Assembly (NCBI GenBank): GCA_001797335.1
Contig: MGPE01000001.1
Coordinates: forward strand, 101,775 to 165,774
DNA length: 64,000 nucleotides
Direction: 5' to 3'
DNA from: Deltaproteobacteria bacterium GWA2_38_16
GTDB taxonomy: Bacteria; Bdellovibrionota; JACOXK01; 2-02-FULL-40-11
Both the position numbers and the translations under genes were made by a program. This document shows, one piece after another, positions 33,726 to 62,767 of this stretch (the stretch's first letter is position 1; every line of letters starts with the position of its first letter). The notes below the pieces were generated by a model that did no database searches, was not told where the DNA came from, and saw nothing but the letters and a program-made list of their open reading frames with translations.

Positions 33726-34054
33726 ATCAAGTACTTAAAACAGCAAAATTCATGCCACTTCTTTTAAGCTTAGAATAGGTAAGTTTATAATGATAAATCC
33801 CAAAAAACGTCACCAGGCTTGCATGATTTAGCGATATTTTGGGAGGATATCAAATACTCTAATTCATGCTGGTATTGACACCGTGTCATCCCGGGTGAGC
33901 ATAGCGAGACCCGGAATCCAGAAACTTTTAGTCAGGATAACTTTTGCTCTGTCATGCCAAGCATGAGATTTGAACTTCATGCATCGCTTACACCTAGTAT
34001 CTTCATTAGAATTTCTTGTTTTTCTAAGGGGATCATTTATAGTATTTTAAAAAT
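33726..34054. other. Divergent intergenic region with repeat remnants
   Basis: Holds no gene. It contains a GTCATCCCGGGTGAGCATAG then CGAGACCCGGAATCCAG hairpin repeat at 33885-33921 (arms CCGGGT / ACCCGG), a second GTCATGCCAAGCATGAGA fragment about 33951, and a probable phhB promoter (TTGTTT 34016-34021, 16 bases, TATAGT 34038-34043) that leaves a five-base leader. Confidence 0.6.
33885..33921. repeat. Hairpin repeat related to type B
   Basis: GTCATCCCGGGT, loop GAGCATAGCGAG, ACCCGGAATCCAG. The ends match the GTCATCCC...GGATCCAG boundaries of common interspersed bacterial palindromes, read in the opposite orientation to the GGGATGACAG copies. Confidence 0.75.
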
Positions 34055-53156: not shown

Positions 53157-53184
53157 ACTATAGTCCTCCTGAAAAAAACGTCAA
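53157..53184 (-). promoter_or_regulatory. Promoter of the nrdJ operon
   Basis: Minus strand TTGACG (53184-53179), a 16-base spacer, TATAGT (53162-53157); start about 53150. AGAGG follows before ATG 53136. Confidence 0.65.
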
Positions 53185-53208
53185 CCCCTTAATAACAAAG
53201 GGGTTTTT
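53183..53208 (+). terminator. Small hairpin with T-run facing the plus strand
   Basis: AACCCCTT (53183-53190) / AAGGGGTT (53198-53205) with a 7-base loop, then T to 53208. It is oriented to stop plus-strand transcripts. As no plus-strand gene lies just upstream, it may insulate the sigma-54 region from antisense reads of nrdJ. Confidence 0.5.
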
Positions 53209-53412: not shown

Positions 53413-53428
53413 TGGCATGGCCCTTGCT
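53413..53428 (+). promoter_or_regulatory. Sigma-54-type promoter of the 53.5-59.9 kb cluster
   Basis: TGGCATGGCCCTTGCT matches the -24/-12 consensus TGGCACG-N4-TTGCW at all but one base, with GG (53414-53415) and GC (53426-53427) ten bases apart as required. The predicted start is about 53438-53440, which gives a leader of about 100 bases before ATG 53541. Confidence 0.75.
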
Positions 53429-53540
53429 TTATTTAAGAGTAAAGGTGTTGGGACGATTAGAAAACGATTAAAATAATTAGGTATCGAAAGCTCGAGTTAA
53501 AAGTTTATTTTAAATTTTGGTTTAGATTTTGGAGGTAGTT

Positions 53541-54884
53541 ATGTTGATGAAACTGAAGCTCACGTTCAATCCGGTAGTGATTAAAAAAATAATTATAATT
53601 TTATTGGCCATATTGATTGCATCAATTACGACCAGTTTTTCTTTTAATCTCAAGAAAGCATATGGTGGAACTCCTGAGGATATTTTGGTGAAAGAGTTAA
53701 TGGACAAAAAAGCTGAATTAGAAAAACTAAGTGCAAAACTTTCTGAATTTATTGAAAGAAGTAAAACAGCTACCCCTTCTGCAGACGATATGAGTGTTTT
53801 AGTAGCTGAGCTTAAAAGATTTCAATCTTTGTATCCTTCTAGAGCATTAGATGGACTTATTGAAGTTCTATCAGATAGAAAAGATACTTTTGATAGTGCA
53901 CTAAAAAGTGTTTTAGTAAATTATTTAGGTACTTTAATTGAAGATACTACAGAGCTTGATAAAAAAATTAAGTCCTATGGTGGAAATACGGCTAAAAAGC
54001 CTTGTGATCCCACAGATCCTAATTCCCCTTGTGCATTAAAGTCAGACCTTCTTGAACAAATTGCTGCGTTACAAAAAGTATTAGAAGCTAAGAATCAAGA
54101 AACCACTTCTTTAAAAGAAGCAGTGAGTGAGCTTAAAAAAGGCAATAAAGACTTGACAGAAAAAATGGGGAAAATAGAAAAAGACATGTTTGAAACTATT
54201 GTTCAGCTTCAAACTCAAATTACCCTTTCTTCGAGCTCTCCAGAGCAGATTGTAACTCAGTATCACGAACTTTCTAAAAAGTTCATGGGGCTCTTTCAAC
54301 TGGTTCGATCCATTAAAGTTTCTATTGGTCAGATGGATGAAAGAATTGAAGACATTAAAGAAGAGCTTACTAAAACAGACTTGTCTTCAGAAAAACGAGA
54401 AAAGCTAGAAAAAGAATTAAAATCACTGACAGCAGATCGAGATAAAGCTCAAAAAACATTTGATCAACTTGAAAAATCTTTTGCCATGCAAAAGTCAATG
54501 ATTACCGCGTTTAGAGCTCATATGGAACAAAACCAAATTGACCCTCAACTTTCGGGTCAGGGCAGAGGCGTTAGAGTAATAGGGCCTGATGGACAAGTTG
54601 TCATGCAACAACCTCCTGTGGCCACACAGCCTCAAGGCCAGAATCAAGGTCAAATGACCCAAGATGAATTCATTCGAAATATTGTCATGCAACAAGTGTT
54701 TGGAATTCAGCGATCTGTGAATAACTTTAACCAAGGGATTTCTGCCAATATGCCTCCTGCCCAAGTGCAACCCGCACCGGGAGCTAATCCTAATCGGCAG
54801 GCAGGCAATCGAGGCAGTAGCTCAATTTCAGCCGGTTCTAATGTACCCAGAGGCAATAGCCTGATGGATTTAATCCAATTTTAA
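53541..54884 (+). CDS. Exported coiled-coil protein, first gene of a sigma-54-driven cluster
   Basis: Protein of 447 residues from ATG 53541 (GGAGG five bases upstream). Signal segment 14-37 (KKIIIILLAILIASITTSFSF) ends in K-A-Y-G at 39-42. Then come a helical region, a short hinge with two cysteines (CDPTDPNSPC), coiled coils about 170-350 (LLEQIAALQKVLEAKNQETT; REKLEKELKSLTADRDKAQK), and a disordered Gln/Pro/Asn/Gly tail with MTQDEFIRNIVMQQVFGIQR. It ends NSLMDLIQF. No family recognised. The stop is 46 bases before the next start, and the layout resembles that protein. Probably periplasmic or surface structural protein; inference. Confidence 0.75.
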   Translation: MLMKLKLTFNPVVIKKIIIILLAILIASITTSFSFNLKKAYGGTPEDILVKELMDKKAELEKLSAKLSEFIERSKTATPSADDMSVLVAELKRFQSLYPSRALDGLIEVLSDRKDTFDSALKSVLVNYLGTLIEDTTELDKKIKSYGGNTAKKPCDPTDPNSPCALKSDLLEQIAALQKVLEAKNQETTSLKEAVSELKKGNKDLTEKMGKIEKDMFETIVQLQTQITLSSSSPEQIVTQYHELSKKFMGLFQLVRSIKVSIGQMDERIEDIKEELTKTDLSSEKREKLEKELKSLTADRDKAQKTFDQLEKSFAMQKSMITAFRAHMEQNQIDPQLSGQGRGVRVIGPDGQVVMQQPPVATQPQGQNQGQMTQDEFIRNIVMQQVFGIQRSVNNFNQGISANMPPAQVQPAPGANPNRQAGNRGSSSISAGSNVPRGNSLMDLIQF

Positions 54885-54930
54885 TGTGGAGATGGAAATG
54901 ACAGATGAGAAAATGGAAAGGGAGAAGACA

Positions 54931-56238
54931 ATGAAAACGATGGTTATAAAAATGGTAGTGGTGATGGTAATTTTTGGTGGGGCATTTACCCTCAAGAATT
55001 TCACAAATTTTGTCGATAAGGCATATGGTGATGGAGAAGCTCCTACAATCGATAGAGCGGCACTTGTAGATGAAGCTGTTCAGTTGATTGGGAAGGTACA
55101 AGAGTATGAGAGACAACGAGGTGCTTTAGATGCCATTATTGCTCGCACCAATATTTCTCATAGTACAAGAGGATTAACGATGAAAGAAAAACATGAGCTT
55201 ATTAAAAGTAATGCTCAAGTACTTTTAGATAAAATTGAAGCTTTTATGAGGAAAGTTCATGATGCTCATATGGTAGAAATAGAAGCAACGTTGCGTTCAA
55301 AAAAGGAGAGCTTAACAGGGGATCTCCGAGGGCAAGATGAACTTATTGAAAAAGCATTAAAAGAATTATTAACAGAATGGGCCAGTGCTGCCGATGAAAG
55401 TACATGCCCGGATCCAGGTGCGGTAACTCCAGAGCCTAAGAAACCCGTGGTTACTGAAGCAGATGATGCGGATAAATATATTGAAGCTGCTCTGTGGGAA
55501 GAGGTTTTAGAAAACTTAGAACCCGATTTTTCTGCCGAACTGAGCCGAGAAGAACTTAAAGAATTAAAAACAGATATCACTAAAGCTGTGGCTGAGTTTG
55601 TGGAAACCTATGTTGCTCAATATCAAGCACGCATTGATAGTCCCTTTGCGTTTATTGATAGCCGCGATGAGAAAGATCAAAGGCTTTACTATAATCCAGA
55701 TAGACAGCTTCGAAAAGTTGCTCGAAAAATTAAAGAGTTAGAAGCCGCTCTTAAAGTCGAAGGGTTAAGTACAACCGATGCCAATAAATTACGACTTGAA
55801 CTCTTTACAGCTAAGCAACTCAAATCTTACTTTGAAAAATATATTCGAGGAGTCAATACCCATACTTCGGGAGAAGAAGATGCTTCTGTTCCTTCCGGCG
55901 GTGGGATTGACCAAGAAACCATGGCCATGCTCATGCTCTTAAATAGCCAAGGGATGTTATCTCAAGAAGAAATGCAGATGCTTCTTATGGGCGGTGGAGC
56001 AGGAAGTTCTTCTAAACCTAAAACAGGGTTTGGAATTAAACTGGGGAGCACCCCCTGGGGTGGAGTAGACGTTGGGTTTGATTATAATAATCAAGATTAT
56101 GGAATGAGTATGGGCGGAACTTTTGGAAATGAATATCGTGGATTTCCAGGAATGCCTGGTGGAATGCCCGGAATGATGGGGCCTGGATTTAATCCAGCAG
56201 ATCCCTACTCAGATCCAAGTATGTGGTTTAGACGGTAA
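54931..56238 (+). CDS. Exported helical protein with a Met/Gly-rich tail, second gene of the cluster
   Basis: Protein of 435 residues from ATG 54931 (AGGGAG six bases upstream; an earlier ATG at 54898 has GGAG and is possible). Signal MKTMVIKMVVVMVIFGGAFT..., ending in K-A-Y-G at 30-33 as in the preceding protein. Helical segments, a C-P-D-P...PEPKKP hinge about 160, a second helical region (LSREELKELKTDITKAVAEF; LRKVARKIKELEAALK), a Met-rich amphipathic stretch (METMAMLMLL-like, MLSQEEMQMLLMGGG), then a Gly/Met/Pro tail (FPGMPGGMPGMMGPGF) ending SMWFRR. No known family. It shares the plan of the first protein. Confidence 0.75.
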   Translation: MKTMVIKMVVVMVIFGGAFTLKNFTNFVDKAYGDGEAPTIDRAALVDEAVQLIGKVQEYERQRGALDAIIARTNISHSTRGLTMKEKHELIKSNAQVLLDKIEAFMRKVHDAHMVEIEATLRSKKESLTGDLRGQDELIEKALKELLTEWASAADESTCPDPGAVTPEPKKPVVTEADDADKYIEAALWEEVLENLEPDFSAELSREELKELKTDITKAVAEFVETYVAQYQARIDSPFAFIDSRDEKDQRLYYNPDRQLRKVARKIKELEAALKVEGLSTTDANKLRLELFTAKQLKSYFEKYIRGVNTHTSGEEDASVPSGGGIDQETMAMLMLLNSQGMLSQEEMQMLLMGGGAGSSSKPKTGFGIKLGSTPWGGVDVGFDYNNQDYGMSMGGTFGNEYRGFPGMPGGMPGMMGPGFNPADPYSDPSMWFRR

Positions 56239-56253
56239 GTAAAGATTTAGAGT

Positions 56254-56296
56254 GTTTGGGGCCTTTTCGCTCTGGCCTTCGGAAAAGGTCTCAAAC
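56254..56296 (+). promoter_or_regulatory. Strong hairpin between the second and third cluster genes
   Basis: Fifteen-base stem GTTTGGGGCCTTTTC (56254-56268) / GAAAAGGTCTCAAAC (56282-56296), two G-T pairs, 13-base loop, no T-run. It may be an mRNA processing or stability element, or a weak attenuator lowering expression of the third gene. Confidence 0.55.
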
Positions 56297-56417
56297 ATTC
56301 TAGTAGTAGTTCAAGCTCAAGTTCACGTTGGAAGTGCGTTTTTGGTAGTAACTTGAATCTCGTGCCGAAGACTGTAATTTAGAAAAAGTATGGTATAATT
56401 AAAGGAGTTATATCCTT

Positions 56418-59400
56418 ATGAAGAACGTATTATGTAAGTCTGCCTGGGTGTATGTTTTTGTATTTACTCTGTGTATTAGCTTATCTTCTGTTAAAGGAGA
56501 GGAGCCAACAGCTCCTCCCAGGCCTGGCGATCCTACCTTCATAGGACCAACTCAGACAGATCCAGCGCCTGCAACACCTGCTCCTGCACCTGCTGGTGCG
56601 ACAATAAATCTACCACCCGGATCGACAGTTACAGTGACTGTTCCTGGGGGACAACCAGCTCAGCCACCAACTCAACCACCCGTTCAAACACCTGCACCCG
56701 AACCCCCTGCTCCTGCAGCAACTCCAGCGCCCACACCACCTGAAGTTACTCACTATCAGGTCCCTCGCTCAGGGTTTAATTCAGCTACCGAAGGCACACT
56801 CCTTCACCAACAGAATGCTTCGAGAAGACGTATTTATGATTTAAGAATAACCTTAGGGACATTACAACAAGAACTGATGAAACGAAGACATGATGCTCAA
56901 CGTCTTCCCAAAGGAAGTTCTGCACAAAAAGCCGCAGAAATTGCAGCCCAAAAAGCACAAGAACAAGTTGCCTTGACCAAAAAGGAATTACAACAAACTC
57001 AACAAAATTTTTCTAACCAACGCCAACAGCTTGCTCAATTAGGAAAAAGAGCTCCGGCCATTGCACAAGATGCAGAAAGAATAAATGTCATTAATCGAGA
57101 TCAAGTCGTGGGAAATATGATTGCCCGCATTCCACCAGGAAGTAATGGTGTGGGTGCCTTAAAAGCCGGTGAGTTACCCCAGGATATAAGTGAAGTACAA
57201 GAAGCATTTAATGAAGATCAGGCAGATATAACTGCCCTTCGAGATGCTTCTGGAACCCTAGCCTATCTTTCTCAATTAGATCCCAGTCAGTTAGAAAATA
57301 ATATAGATCTCATTAATAACGCCTTACGGGGAGTTCCTGAATTTGATACGGAGTTAAGGGCTTCTTTAACCTCTCTTAAAAATATTGCTGAACAAAGAAA
57401 AGAATCTAATCAGAGAGAAAGGCGAGAGGTTAAACCCTTGGAACATTTTGTAGAGATGGATACGCGCTCTATTTTAAGATTGAGCAAAGAAGATTTAGCT
57501 AAATATTTAAGAAGGGCTGGCAAAGATGATACTTCTATTGAAGTAACTTTGTCAGAATTGGAGAGTGGAGGTTTTTGGTCAGATGTATCAGGAGATTATA
57601 GTCGTCGTACAAAAGCTGCAGAGCAATTAAGACAAGATGTGGGCGGAGAATTAAATCAACGAAAACGAAGAATGAGAGAGGAAAAAGCAGCACAGGATTC
57701 CCAGTTTAATCGCAATTTAGGAGAAAGTTTTACAATGGCCAATGCAGAGACAGAAGCTATTCAAGCGAATATCTCCCAAAGCTTAAATGAAATACGACAA
57801 GAAATCGCTAATCAACAACAAATCCTAAATAATACTAAAGATGACGAGGTAGCTACTGCAGCCAGTCATCAATTGGAAATATTAAGAGGAAGAGAAGGGC
57901 CATTGATGGTGGCGCTACAGGCGGCATCCGATCGGCCAGATGAAAGACTTTTAGCAAATAATGGATATGTAGAGGGAGAACCGCCGGTGAATAATCGTAT
58001 TGCTCAAGTGGATGCCGAAGAAGATATTTTAGCAGGAACCCAAAAAATGAAAGCAGCGGGAGAATCCCAAGAAGCCATTGAACGATGGCAAGAGGGGATG
58101 CGTATTGCCACAGCCCCGGAGGCGGAGGATGCGGGAAGTTGTTTTTGGAGCAATCTTGGAGGGGGTGTTGCAAATGTATTATGGCGTCATGAATGGAGTG
58201 TAACTGGTATTCTTGGAAAGGGTGTTGGGTTATTTGGAAAAGGAGTTGGGTTGATAGGAGATGTGTTTGGAGGAATTGGAAGTTTCTTTACCACACCGGT
58301 AAAACAAGGACTTTTTGCCACATTTTCAGCATTGGCCCAATATCAATATACCCAAAAAGGAAGCCAAAACGAAAACACCCAAATTTATCGAGGGTTGGCC
58401 ACGGCCTTAGGACTCAATATGGCGGTTCAAGGTGAAATGCCTGCCGGTATGGAAAAATTTGTAGATCCCCTAGAGCCTTTTAAAAGAGATCCCCTGGCCA
58501 TGCAAGATATGATTGCGGGACAAGATCGCATTTTGTCTGAAGTCTTAACGATTGGTGGAAATCCATCCGCTCCGGGAGGATATCCTTATGGAACCAGCGA
58601 CAGACTTCAATCTGTTCTTCAAGGAGCCGGTCCTGGCTCTCCGAGATTTCCAGCATCGGCGAGTTCTGGTTTTCCAGGAGTGTTTGATCCCAATTTTCAA
58701 AATTTTTCTGGCCAAGCTTATAATGGATTTCCTCCTCAAGCCAATATTCCTGTCGGAGGGGCTTATTTAAATCCACAAGCCGGTTCTCAAAGTCCCTTTT
58801 ATTCAGGCAGTGGCCTTGCGTCGGTTACGCGGACTACGGCTAAGCCTTCTTTAGCTAAGCAAGGACTAGCAGGATTGGTGGCAGCAACGGCGGTTGAAAG
58901 AAGTGGTGTCCAAAATTATCGTCAGCAATTAGAAGATGTGAATCCTCCTGATAATTCCATGGTGAGTATCGTCGGAGAAGTGGATCGACTGGCCGCGCGT
59001 AATCGAGAATTAAGAAATCGAGGACTCACTCTTTCTCAAATAGAAGAACAACAAAATGCAAGTTACATTAATAACACAATTGTTCGTCAGCAAGCCAGAA
59101 TTGCAGAACAGATTCAAAAGCTATCAAATATTAATATGCGCATTTGGGAAAAATCCCAGGAATTTAGAAAGCATGATATTCAAATTCAAAGAGATGACGA
59201 TGGGCTCATGATTGGTTCAAGGCGAGACTGGTCTCAAAATATGGAAGCCAGAAATGCATCTTTGATTGAACTCACCAAACTTCGGGATGAAAGAGCAGCA
59301 GCCTTAGAAGCCATTGCCTTTATTCGAGCTAATCCCATGCTTTTTGAACGGATGCTGGCCCAGCAACCCCAAGTTCCACAGCCTAAAAATAATCCTCAGC

Positions 59401-59945
59401 AACCTCAAGAACTAACCCCTTTTGGTTTTCTGATGATTCGACCCCTCTGGGCGGCTGAAGAACTAAACGTAACACTGGCCTTAGATCCAAATTGGAAAGC
59501 CATGGTTCAAGAAGAAAAACAGTTGGTTCAAAAAGAATTGGCTGAGAATCAGAAAAAATTAGAAGCCTTAAAGCCAGAGCTTAAAAAATTAGTAGAGCTC
59601 GATCCCAGAGGCGTTCATGAAATTAATGTGCCGATTCTCCAGAATGAAGAACTCAATATGAAAGCCATTGCCCTTCAGGCGCATCAAAATTTAGAAAAAC
59701 TTAAAAAAGCTGAAGGTAAGATAAAAGACGATACAACAATCAGCGTTCAAGAAAAAGAAGAAACATTGGCGCATATTAAAGAGTATCGTTTTATATTGAC
59801 AGATCTTCTAAAAGAGTCCAAACAATGTGCGAATGAATTGGCTCAAGTTGAAAGATTGCAACGACAAAAACGAGAACAATTTGAAATATTTCATCATTTT
59901 AGAGAAATTGGACAAAAACGGTTAGAAGAATTTTCCTCTTTATGA
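56418..59945 (+). CDS. Very large exported Pro-rich and coiled-coil protein, third gene of the cluster
   Basis: Protein of 1175 residues, ATG with AGGAG ten bases upstream. Signal peptide 1-27; Pro/Ala/Gln-rich low-complexity segment about 29-112 (PAPATPAPAPAG); helical, Gln/Arg-rich coiled coils about 125-555. A Gly-rich hydrophobic stretch about 571-640 follows (WSVTGILGKGVGLFGKGVGL, IGDVFGGIGSFFTTPVKQGL), then a Gly/Pro/Ser-rich region about 700-800, more helices, a second hydrophobic patch near 1002 (FGFLMIRPLWAAEELNV), and a C-terminal coiled coil. No catalytic motif or family recognised. The end overlaps ilvA by four bases, which ties that gene to the same transcript. A surface or envelope-spanning structural role is a guess. 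Confidence 0.78.
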   Translation: MKNVLCKSAWVYVFVFTLCISLSSVKGEEPTAPPRPGDPTFIGPTQTDPAPATPAPAPAGATINLPPGSTVTVTVPGGQPAQPPTQPPVQTPAPEPPAPAATPAPTPPEVTHYQVPRSGFNSATEGTLLHQQNASRRRIYDLRITLGTLQQELMKRRHDAQRLPKGSSAQKAAEIAAQKAQEQVALTKKELQQTQQNFSNQRQQLAQLGKRAPAIAQDAERINVINRDQVVGNMIARIPPGSNGVGALKAGELPQDISEVQEAFNEDQADITALRDASGTLAYLSQLDPSQLENNIDLINNALRGVPEFDTELRASLTSLKNIAEQRKESNQRERREVKPLEHFVEMDTRSILRLSKEDLAKYLRRAGKDDTSIEVTLSELESGGFWSDVSGDYSRRTKAAEQLRQDVGGELNQRKRRMREEKAAQDSQFNRNLGESFTMANAETEAIQANISQSLNEIRQEIANQQQILNNTKDDEVATAASHQLEILRGREGPLMVALQAASDRPDERLLANNGYVEGEPPVNNRIAQVDAEEDILAGTQKMKAAGESQEAIERWQEGMRIATAPEAEDAGSCFWSNLGGGVANVLWRHEWSVTGILGKGVGLFGKGVGLIGDVFGGIGSFFTTPVKQGLFATFSALAQYQYTQKGSQNENTQIYRGLATALGLNMAVQGEMPAGMEKFVDPLEPFKRDPLAMQDMIAGQDRILSEVLTIGGNPSAPGGYPYGTSDRLQSVLQGAGPGSPRFPASASSGFPGVFDPNFQNFSGQAYNGFPPQANIPVGGAYLNPQAGSQSPFYSGSGLASVTRTTAKPSLAKQGLAGLVAATAVERSGVQNYRQQLEDVNPPDNSMVSIVGEVDRLAARNRELRNRGLTLSQIEEQQNASYINNTIVRQQARIAEQIQKLSNINMRIWEKSQEFRKHDIQIQRDDDGLMIGSRRDWSQNMEARNASLIELTKLRDERAAALEAIAFIRANPMLFERMLAQQPQVPQPKNNPQQPQELTPFGFLMIRPLWAAEELNVTLALDPNWKAMVQEEKQLVQKELAENQKKLEALKPELKKLVELDPRGVHEINVPILQNEELNMKAIALQAHQNLEKLKKAEGKIKDDTTISVQEKEETLAHIKEYRFILTDLLKESKQCANELAQVERLQRQKREQFEIFHHFREIGQKRLEEFSSL

Positions 59946-61156
59946 AATCACCCACCCTTGAAGATATTCAAAAAGCCCAAAAAGTTATCAAAGACGCTAT
60001 TCTTCACACACCGCTTAAACGATCTAATTATTTTTCTGAACTTTTTTTAAAAAATATCTATTTTAAAATGGAAAATCTTCAGCACACCGGTGCTTTTAAA
60101 GTCCGAGGGGCTAGAAATAAACTTCTTTCTTTAACCGATGCAGAAAAAAAACAAGGCGTTATTACCGCTTCCGCCGGAAATCATGCGCAAGGAGTGGCCT
60201 ACCAGGCTAAGCTTTTGGGGACACCTTCTACGATTGTCATGCCTGAAAGTACGCCCATGGGAAAAGTTCAAGCTACAAAATCCTACGGAGCCAAAGTAAT
60301 TTTAAAAGGGCTAAATTATGACGAAGCCTATGAAGAAGCCCTTCGTCTTCAAGAAGAAATGGGAGCCATTTTTATTCATGCGTATGAAGATCCTTTTATT
60401 ATTGCAGGGCAAGGAACGATTGGGCTTGAAATTTTAGAAGAAGAACCCAAGACAGAAGTTATTATTGTCCCCATTGGCGGAGGAGGACTTATTTCAGGGA
60501 TTGCTATTGCGGCAAAATCGTTAAATCCAAAAATTAAAATTATTGGAGTTCAGGCGGATGGCGCAGCCACCATGGCAGAATCTTTAAAAAAAGGAAAAGC
60601 CTGCGTTCTTGCTTCGATGAGTACCATGGCCGAAGGGATTGCAGTAAAAAAAGCAAGTCCTTATACGTTTGGTTTTATTCAACAATATGTAGATGAAGTG
60701 GTCACAGTTTCCGATGAAGACATTGCTGTATCTATTTTGCAACTTTTAGAAAAAACAAAAATGATTGTAGAGGGAGCTGGGGCAGTAACACTGGCTTCAC
60801 TTTTATCTAAAAAATTACATCTCAAAGAAAAAAATATTGTATGTCTTTTAAGTGGGGGAAATTTAGATGTAACAACCTTAGCACATATTATTGAACGAGG
60901 ATTGGTACAAGAAGGAAGAATGGTTAGGCTCAGTGTTACCGTCGATGATATACCAGGATCTCTTCAAAAGCTCACAAAAATCATTGCAGATTTAAAAGCC
61001 AATATTATGCAGGTCAATCATGAGCGACAGTTTTTAAATGTATCTTTTGGAAAAACAAAAATTCTTTTGACTCTAGAGACTAAAGGTCCAGAGCATATCA
61101 AAGAAATTCTTCACAAGCTTGAAAGTTCGGGCTATAGTCCAAAACAAGATGAGTAA
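59942..61156 (+). CDS. ilvA: Threonine ammonia-lyase with ACT domain
   Basis: PLP enzyme of 404 residues that converts threonine to 2-oxobutyrate, the first step of isoleucine synthesis. PLP lysine K53 in HTGAFKVRGA; SAGNHAQGVAYQA; phosphate loop PIGGGGLISG; LLSGGNLDVT. A C-terminal ACT domain about 330-400 (RLSVTVDDIPGSLQKLTKII) suggests amino-acid feedback. One ACT domain rather than two resembles the shorter biosynthetic/TdcB-like form. Overlaps the end of the cluster's large gene by four bases and the thiolase by eight. Confidence 0.95.
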   Translation: MKSPTLEDIQKAQKVIKDAILHTPLKRSNYFSELFLKNIYFKMENLQHTGAFKVRGARNKLLSLTDAEKKQGVITASAGNHAQGVAYQAKLLGTPSTIVMPESTPMGKVQATKSYGAKVILKGLNYDEAYEEALRLQEEMGAIFIHAYEDPFIIAGQGTIGLEILEEEPKTEVIIVPIGGGGLISGIAIAAKSLNPKIKIIGVQADGAATMAESLKKGKACVLASMSTMAEGIAVKKASPYTFGFIQQYVDEVVTVSDEDIAVSILQLLEKTKMIVEGAGAVTLASLLSKKLHLKEKNIVCLLSGGNLDVTTLAHIIERGLVQEGRMVRLSVTVDDIPGSLQKLTKIIADLKANIMQVNHERQFLNVSFGKTKILLTLETKGPEHIKEILHKLESSGYSPKQDE

Positions 61157-62342
61157 AGAGATCGTGATTTTGCCAGGGAAAAGAACTCCTTTTGGCGCCT
61201 TTGGCGGAACTTTAAAAGATTTTACAGCCAATGACTTAGGCGTTTTTGCTGCCAAAGCGGCCTTGGAAGCTTCTCACGTTAAACCAGAATCTATTGATCA
61301 TGTTATTTTTGGAAATGTGGCTCAGACCTCTCAAGATGCTGCTTATTTAGCGCGTCATGTGGGATTAAGAGCAGGCGTTCCAATCGCAACCCCTGCCTAT
61401 ACGGTGAATCGTCTGTGTGGGTCTGGGTTTCAAGCGGTTGTGAATGCGGCAGAAGAAATTTTATTGGATGAAGCCTCTTTGGTATTAGCCGGGGGGACAG
61501 AAAGCATGAGTCAAGCTCCCTATGTCGTAAAAGGTGCTAGGTGGGGCATTCGGATGGGATCAACAGAACTTCAAGATTATTTATGGGCGGCGCTTACCGA
61601 CACCTATACAGGGCTTTCCATGGCCGTCAGTACTGAAAATTTGGCCAAGAAAAAAGATATTTCAAGGCAAGCCTGTGATGAATATTCTTTAAGAAGCCAG
61701 ATGAATTATAAAAAAGCATATGAAGCAGGACTTTTTAAAGAGGAAATTGTTTCTATCGAAGTAAAAGATCGAAAGGGAACTAAAACATCATTTCATAACG
61801 ACGAACACCCAAAACCAGATACGACGCTAGAGGGGTTATCCAAACTTAAAGCTTTTTTTGTGGAGAATGGGGTTGTAACCGCGGGAAGCGCCAGTGGAAT
61901 TACCGACGGTGCATCAGCCATGGTGGTGACCAGCAGTGAAGCTGCAAAAAAACAGGGATTAAAACCCATTGGAAAGCTTTTAGGATGGGCAGTTTCTGGA
62001 TGTGATCCCAAAGAAATGGGAATTGGGCCATCTCTTGCTATTCCCAAAGCACTTCAAAAGGTAGGGCTTTCGTTAAAAGAAATTGATTTAATTGAAGTGA
62101 ATGAAGCTTTTGCTGCACAATATTTAGCGGTTGAAAAAGATTTAAATCTTCCTAGAGAAATTACCAATGTCAATGGGGGCGCTATTGCTATAGGCCATCC
62201 CCTGGGAGCTTCTGGAGCACGTATTACCAATCACCTTCTTTACGAACTTAAACGCCGGAAGAAAAAATATGGTGTCGGCTCTGCCTGTATTGGCGGCGGC
62301 CAAGGCATTGCACTTGTTTTTGAATCCATAATTAGGAGTTGA
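61149..62342 (+). CDS. Acetyl-CoA acetyltransferase (thiolase)
   Basis: Thiolase of 397 residues from ATG 61149, which overlaps the end of ilvA. Nucleophile C90 in NRLCGSGFQAV; GGTESMSQAPYV; NEAFAAQYLAVEK; NVNGGAIAIGHPLGASGAR with the catalytic histidine; GSACIGGGQGIALVFE with the second cysteine. The form fits acetoacetyl-CoA thiolase of the biosynthetic type (PhaA/AtoB); a role in fatty acid breakdown is possible. The C-terminus is complete. Confidence 0.95.
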   Translation: MSKEIVILPGKRTPFGAFGGTLKDFTANDLGVFAAKAALEASHVKPESIDHVIFGNVAQTSQDAAYLARHVGLRAGVPIATPAYTVNRLCGSGFQAVVNAAEEILLDEASLVLAGGTESMSQAPYVVKGARWGIRMGSTELQDYLWAALTDTYTGLSMAVSTENLAKKKDISRQACDEYSLRSQMNYKKAYEAGLFKEEIVSIEVKDRKGTKTSFHNDEHPKPDTTLEGLSKLKAFFVENGVVTAGSASGITDGASAMVVTSSEAAKKQGLKPIGKLLGWAVSGCDPKEMGIGPSLAIPKALQKVGLSLKEIDLIEVNEAFAAQYLAVEKDLNLPREITNVNGGAIAIGHPLGASGARITNHLLYELKRRKKKYGVGSACIGGGQGIALVFESIIRS

Positions 62343-62431: not shown

Positions 62432-62767
62432 GTGATAGTAAATTTTTATGAGACTCCTTCTGGAAGATCACCCGTAGAAGATTTTATTACTTCTCGCTCC
62501 AAAGCTGATCAAGCGCGATTTGCTGAAGTTGTGGTTGGGCTTGAGGAATTCGGACTATCGTATAGTAGAGTCCAATTTAAACCATTAAGAGGAAAACTCT
62601 GGGAAATAAAATTTAGAGCTCCAGATGGAGGATATCGAATGCTTTATATTTTATTAAAATCAGAGGAGATGGTTATTTTACATGCGTTTAGAAAAACGAC
62701 CCCAAAAACACCACTTCATGAATTAGAGGTGGCAGAAAAACGAATGAAGGAGGTATTAGGCCTATGA
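62432..62767 (+). CDS. higB: HigB/RelE-like toxin (phage Gp49-like)
   Basis: Ribosome-dependent mRNA interferase family; 111 residues, GTG start at the predicted transcription start. FYETPSGRSPVEDFI, FKPLRGKLWEIKF, YRMLYILLKSEEMVILHAFRKTTPKTP, then AEKRMKEVL. The LWEIRF/YR..Y and HAF.KK..KTP blocks are typical of the DUF891/Gp49 branch. The stop overlaps the antitoxin gene by four bases. Toxin-first order fits HigBA. Confidence 0.9.
   Translation: MIVNFYETPSGRSPVEDFITSRSKADQARFAEVVVGLEEFGLSYSRVQFKPLRGKLWEIKFRAPDGGYRMLYILLKSEEMVILHAFRKTTPKTPLHELEVAEKRMKEVLGL

Follow-up and report, generated by a model that had tools for sequence, protein, structure and literature searches.

A predicted sigma-54 operon of orphan exported proteins and threonine ammonia-lyase in one class of uncultured bacteria

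What might three large exported proteins of no recognised family do when their genes stand in a row behind a sigma-54 promoter, and what does it mean that an enzyme of amino-acid breakdown follows them directly? These questions are raised by one locus in the window analysed here, that is, the whole 64-kb stretch of DNA from Deltaproteobacteria bacterium GWA2_38_16. The source genome (G000; 2.0 Mb in 19 contigs, estimated to be 100% complete) was compared with related genomes, which carry the designations G001 to G007. A preliminary description had read the locus as a sigma-54-driven cluster of three exported proteins, here called P1, P2 and P3, and had proposed that it could be an undescribed envelope or appendage system.

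Promoter and extent of the operon

The promoter, TGGCATGGCCCTTGCT, occupies positions 53413–53428 of the plus strand, upstream of the first gene of the operon, and agrees with TGGCAYRN4TTGCW at all 12 specified positions, with the correct GG–GC spacing of a -24/-12 promoter; what had been described as near-perfect is a perfect match. It is the only perfect site on the plus strand of the window, and the second one in the window is found on the minus strand at 33742–33757. From the GC at 53426–53427 a transcription start near 53439 is predicted, which would give a leader of about 100 nt before the ATG of P1 at 53541. The lack of an RpoN gene would have overturned the earlier reading, but RpoN is encoded (E value of 1.8e-65), as are enhancer-binding proteins. 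Across the genome, 60 perfect sites were counted against 1 for the reversed control pattern, which indicates that nearly every perfect site is a real signal. Upstream of P1, a 12/12 site was found in all six genomes that have this DNA (G000, G001, G003, G004, G006 and G007, from two families of the class), at a distance of 66–113 nt from the P1 start. Judged from these three lines of sequence evidence, the promoter is not a chance match. Further upstream, at 53183–53205, a bidirectional terminator-like hairpin, with no Rfam match at the gathering score, lies in the leader of a divergent class II ribonucleotide reductase gene on the minus strand.

The unit runs on beyond P3. The start of the next gene (59942–61156, plus strand) overlaps the P3 stop by 4 nt, and its product is a threonine ammonia-lyase by the equivalog model TIGR01127, with 511.5 bits against a cut-off of 378.75; this gene is in turn overlapped by one for an acetyl-CoA C-acyltransferase (thiolase; 61149–62342, plus strand). 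The junction between P3 and threonine ammonia-lyase is an overlap in G000, G003, G004, G005 and G007 and an abutment in G006, that is, it is tight in 6/6 genomes covering it. In the family of the source genome the thiolase gene is directly next (G000, G003 and G004); it lies 548 nt away in G006 and is not adjacent in G007. Because the block is translationally coupled to threonine ammonia-lyase in all six junction genomes, it is not purely an envelope cluster; the three genes described earlier stand, and the boundary at 59945 gives way to a unit that continues into threonine ammonia-lyase and thiolase. From sequence and its conservation, P1, P2, P3 and threonine ammonia-lyase, with or without the thiolase, can be regarded as established as one sigma-54 operon. 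An ORF of the RelE/HigB-like toxin type was seen just past the thiolase gene, at 62432–62767, near the contig end.

Two elements before P3 were also considered. An extended -10-like TATAAT just before this gene was not counted as a promoter, because the start would fall within the ribosome-binding site. Between P2 and P3, a 22-bp hairpin (56247–56303, plus strand; -30.4 kcal/mol, z of -4.3) has no T-run and belongs to no Rfam family at the gathering score; it was rejected as a repeat element, being present as a single copy in the genome, and the weak Rfam matches to microRNA precursors were dismissed. It may, as a guess, set different amounts of P1/P2 and of P3.

Three orphan exported proteins

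The three genes are consecutive on the plus strand, and their products have the sizes given beforehand: P1 of 447 residues (53541–54884), P2 of 435 (54931–56238) and P3 of 1175 (56418–59945). P2 has in-frame alternative starts at 54898 and 54886; the ATG at 54931 is preceded by a GGGAG ribosome-binding site, and its MK(T/S) start is kept in relatives. An N-terminal hydrophobic stretch is present in each protein and cleavage-like sites are kept in relatives, in keeping with the earlier claim of export, and Sec export is predicted for all three. The coiled coils and low-complexity regions were likewise recovered. P1 combines its N-terminal hydrophobic segment or signal peptide with a coiled coil, a Q/P-rich tail and a conserved extreme C-terminus; P2 has a signal peptide, a helical body, a short beta-like GSTPWGGV block and a G/M/P-rich tail; and in P3 the signal peptide is followed by a Pro-rich N-terminus, helical arms, a conserved G/N/P-rich centre and a conserved helical C-terminal region, P1 and P3 being largely helical or coiled coil. 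Counted from alignments, the identity of P1 between G000 and G004 is about 86% in the N-terminal segment and about 33% in the mature protein, and the synonymous DNA changes in that segment point to constraint on the protein. As a separate observation, a hydrophobic stretch is conserved within P3 at residues ~1000–1014, and directly behind it comes an AxA/AAE-like site (for example FFFVRPVWAAE or FFFFKTAFA); the whole resembles an internal signal peptide and is perhaps the trace of a gene fusion or a second processing site.

No credible relative of P1–P3 was found in Pfam, NCBIfam, PHROGs, PADLOC, PDB or Foldseek; the earlier statement that no family could be recognised was thereby borne out, and clear homology to a known system, which would have overturned it, did not emerge. 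The sole database matches concern the coiled coil of P1; they are generic and, where a curated cut-off exists, fall short of it. The best E value of the PDB profile search was 0.09, and no Foldseek match to the P3 model had one lower than 0.08. Through its coiled coil P1 weakly matches SMC/Rad50-like and other long coiled-coil proteins, but with ~20 bits against cut-offs of 567–1087 and no ATPase heads it was rejected as an SMC/Rad50 ATPase; unlike those proteins it is predicted to be exported, and the similarity is compositional. A PADLOC defence protein was also rejected, with no match to P2 or P3 and weak matches of P1 to many coiled-coil models, as was a type IV pilin or pseudopilin, for which inspection of the N-termini did not reveal the short, charged leader that ends in G and precedes a hydrophobic helix with Glu at position 5, and Pfam gave no pilin match. 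AlphaFold, run on alignments of 5 sequences for P3 and 7 for P2, gave for P3 a pLDDT of 52.7 and a pTM of 0.28, all helical with disordered linkers, and for P2 a pLDDT of 42.5, the strands being few, short and confined to the C-terminus. These poor models support a description as helical and partly disordered, and no more.

P3 was found in 6/8 of the compared genomes of the class and in 0/360 other genomes of the phylum. That G001 and G002 have no P3 probably stems from gaps in their assemblies, since the G001 assembly ends inside P1 and neither genome yields the threonine ammonia-lyase of the block; a distant paralogue of the enzyme is all that both have. P1 homologues occupy the same place in G001, G003 and G004, and positional equivalents are present in G006 and G007. 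Both families of the class have the block near tmk/holB, most genomes retain nrdJ, tmk and holB to its left, and the order P1-P2-P3-enzyme is common to both families, with one insertion in G007. The inserted DNA, between P2 and P3, holds a PIN-domain-like gene and an unassigned 591-aa ORF in the opposite orientation (L055:12557-14332). A scan of genome contigs with a single protein returned no relatives; a scan with an alignment returned two, both Deltaproteobacteria metagenome-assembled genomes of this class that were already among those compared, one of them from groundwater.

Between the two families, P3 is homologous (hhalign probability of 99.7, E value of 3.4e-27, 479 columns), whereas the homology of P1 is undetectable by hhalign (probability of 6.5) and that of P2 is undetectable as well; both diverge much faster than P3, and in place and architecture each corresponds to its counterpart in the other family. 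Since the promoter is conserved in both families and P1 has diverged beyond detection, the promoter is more conserved than the gene that it drives. The block is a genuine operon of orphan exported proteins, well conserved and confined to one lineage.

A short motif is common to P1 and P3. It reads PRGNSLMDLI at the C-terminal end of P1 (54846–54875, plus strand; residues 436–445) and PPDNSMVSIV at the start of a predicted helix of P3 (58944–58973, plus strand; residues 843–852), and in three genomes the versions are PRGNSLMDLI, PRGNSVMDLV and PEDNSLRALI for P1 and PPDNSMVSIV, PPNNSLKSLI and PPGNSLKDLI for P3. When ungapped ten-column profiles of conserved columns, built from three genomes each, were scored with column shuffles as control, the best P1–P3 window reached 27.8, whereas the shuffles averaged 15.7 (sd of 1.6) and 0/300 of them attained the observed score, and the result was repeated; by the same scoring, the pairs P1–P2 and P2–P3 gave no comparable motif. 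A degenerate DNA pattern of the motif has 6 matches in the genome, of which only the P1 and P3 copies fit after translation. In the second family no significant P1–P3 equivalent was found. The simplest use of the motif would be docking, either of the P1 tail at the P3 helix start or of both proteins on a third partner; it could also be a generic helix start, a local structural solution and not a docking site.

The sigma-54 sites of the genome and a candidate activator

The genes downstream of all 60 perfect sites were read for the content of the regulon. By a crude signal-peptide predictor, 34/53 genes behind perfect sigma-54 sites look exported, in comparison with 24/66 in a background sample of 66 genes (one-sided Fisher p = 0.002). 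Read by eye, and named from their sequences without family searches, the products include lipoproteins, beta-barrel-like proteins, subtilase-like proteases (two such exported proteins), Tad-like pilus genes, LpxC and a FliA-like sigma factor. The set of 60 sites as a whole looks like a sigma-54 secretome regulon, with which an envelope role of P1–P3 fits. The view that sigma-54 controls the exterior of bacteria has been put forward in the literature (Francke et al., 2011; PMC3162934), and the enrichment of exported products in this genome agrees with it. With the operons of that theme the present one has in common the perfect -24/-12 promoter, rpoN and the exported products; it differs from them in that its products belong to no described family and in the translational coupling to threonine ammonia-lyase. 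Two further groups were observed behind perfect sites: three paralogues of a 110-aa protein (M.S..TLEWRD.....I..W) at L023, L025 and L102, whose starts lie 37–41 nt after the site, and three short coiled-coil proteins of simple repeats (for example ATKDDLKNF or VKVLKED) at L020, L030 and L074.

To serve these promoters the genome has seven strong matches to enhancer-binding genes, with one intermediate and two weak ones, and for this operon only a candidate can be named among them. In G003 and G004, genes for methylmalonyl-CoA mutase, propionyl-CoA carboxylase and a PilZ-like protein lie further along the contig of the block, together with two for enhancer-binding proteins. The first of these two carries a PocR sensor domain, as seen in its G004 copy. 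Because of its location beside the propionyl-CoA carboxylase and methylmalonyl-CoA mutase genes, this PocR-type protein is a candidate activator of the P1–P3 operon. In G000 the corresponding cluster is found towards the end of contig C6, and the window reaches to the end of contig C1; with both loci at contig ends, they are probably near neighbours split by the assembly. The second enhancer-binding protein, at L113:10587-11675 on contig C6, is degenerate: by inspection it is without GAFTGA, it follows the complete PocR-type one and in G000 it has its own perfect sigma-54 site. It is also present in G003 and G004, and is possibly a partner or an anti-activator.

The arrangement recalls the PrpR-type sigma-54 control of propionate catabolism, in which an enhancer-binding protein likewise stands beside propionyl-CoA genes, and threonine ammonia-lyase feeds the same pathway. 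The candidate activator was nevertheless rejected as PrpR, with 289 bits against a cut-off of 499, and carries a PocR-type sensor; the genes here belong to the methylmalonyl-CoA route and not to the methylcitrate cycle, and three exported proteins precede the enzyme.

Possible roles of the three proteins

The best explanation, to which we give a probability of about one half, is that P1–P3 form a sigma-54-switched, class-specific envelope assembly that is co-expressed with the catabolism of threonine to propionyl-CoA. An enhancer-binding protein, the PocR-type one being the candidate, would activate RpoN-polymerase at 53413–53428, and three Sec-exported, coiled-coil-rich proteins would then be made and would assemble in the envelope, in the periplasm or at the surface. 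P3 would serve as the large scaffold, and P1 would dock by its C-terminal motif, either to P3 directly or to another protein that P3 binds as well; through translational coupling, these proteins would be made together with the first enzyme of the threonine-to-propionyl-CoA route. RpoN, the 60 sites against 1, the conservation of promoter and synteny, the P3–enzyme coupling and the P1–P3 motif all argue for this explanation, as do the exported products enriched behind sigma-54 sites, the PocR-type activator and propionyl-CoA genes on the contig of the block in G003 and G004, and the published theme of sigma-54 and the exterior (PMC3162934). The formation of a complex, its location, the choice of activator and the purpose of P1–P3 are inferred. 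Against it were counted the poor AlphaFold models, the best Foldseek E value of 0.08, the motif unseen in the second family and its fit to a generic helix start, the seven strong enhancer-binding genes and weaker ones from which an activator has to be chosen, and the crudeness of the signal-peptide predictor.

The same coupling in six genomes, together with the PocR-type activator and the propionyl-CoA carboxylase and mutase genes on one contig in G003 and G004, would also suit envelope proteins that take up or process peptides or amino acids from outside the cell; these would be accessories of catabolism instead of parts of a structure, with threonine breakdown co-expressed as sigma-54 turns on the use of amino acids as a nitrogen and carbon source; the two subtilase-like exported proteins behind sigma-54 sites point the same way. 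We consider this unlikely, although it is the strongest of the alternatives: Pfam and NCBIfam reveal no transporter, peptidase or binding-protein domain in P1–P3, and with their long coiled coils and low-complexity tails the three look more like structural proteins than like enzymes or proteins that bind a substrate.

Slightly less probable again is that each of the three has its own, unrelated task in the envelope and that only their transcription is common to them, the P1–P3 motif being a generic solution for starting a helix. The fast divergence of P1 and P2 relative to P3, the second family without the motif and its compatibility with a helix N-cap speak for this, but both families retain the order P1-P2-P3-enzyme, interrupted by the single insertion of G007, and the motif is the top P1–P3 match, reached by no shuffle. 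An extracellular appendage, sheath or fibre is the least probable of all, for although one promoter serves three exported proteins that have coiled coils and tails rich in G, M, P or Q, and surface structures are commonly under sigma-54 control (PMC3162934), inspection found no type IV prepilin leader, no gene for an usher, a secretin or an assembly ATPase adjoins the block, Foldseek gave no structural match and no repeated subunit-like domain is present. The earlier proposal of an envelope or appendage system is retained in its first half, which fits the exported-rich regulon, and left without specific support in its second, with no pilin-type leader and no fold match.

Returning to the envelope assembly, its most specific form would have P1–P3 as an undescribed, class-specific envelope machine or scaffold, switched by sigma-54, with P1 and P3 docked through the motif and made in step with the breakdown of amino acids, the purpose being to remodel the cell surface whenever threonine is consumed; in this form we hold it to be rather doubtful. 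The locus nonetheless presents a conserved operon restricted to one class of uncultured bacteria, with P3 as a new large protein family and a promoter good enough to predict the operon's regulator and start site, and with its 60 perfect sites this small genome lends itself well to a clean test of the published idea of sigma-54 and the bacterial exterior. If confirmed, the envelope assembly would represent a direct transcriptional and translational tie between the building of the envelope and the catabolism of threonine.
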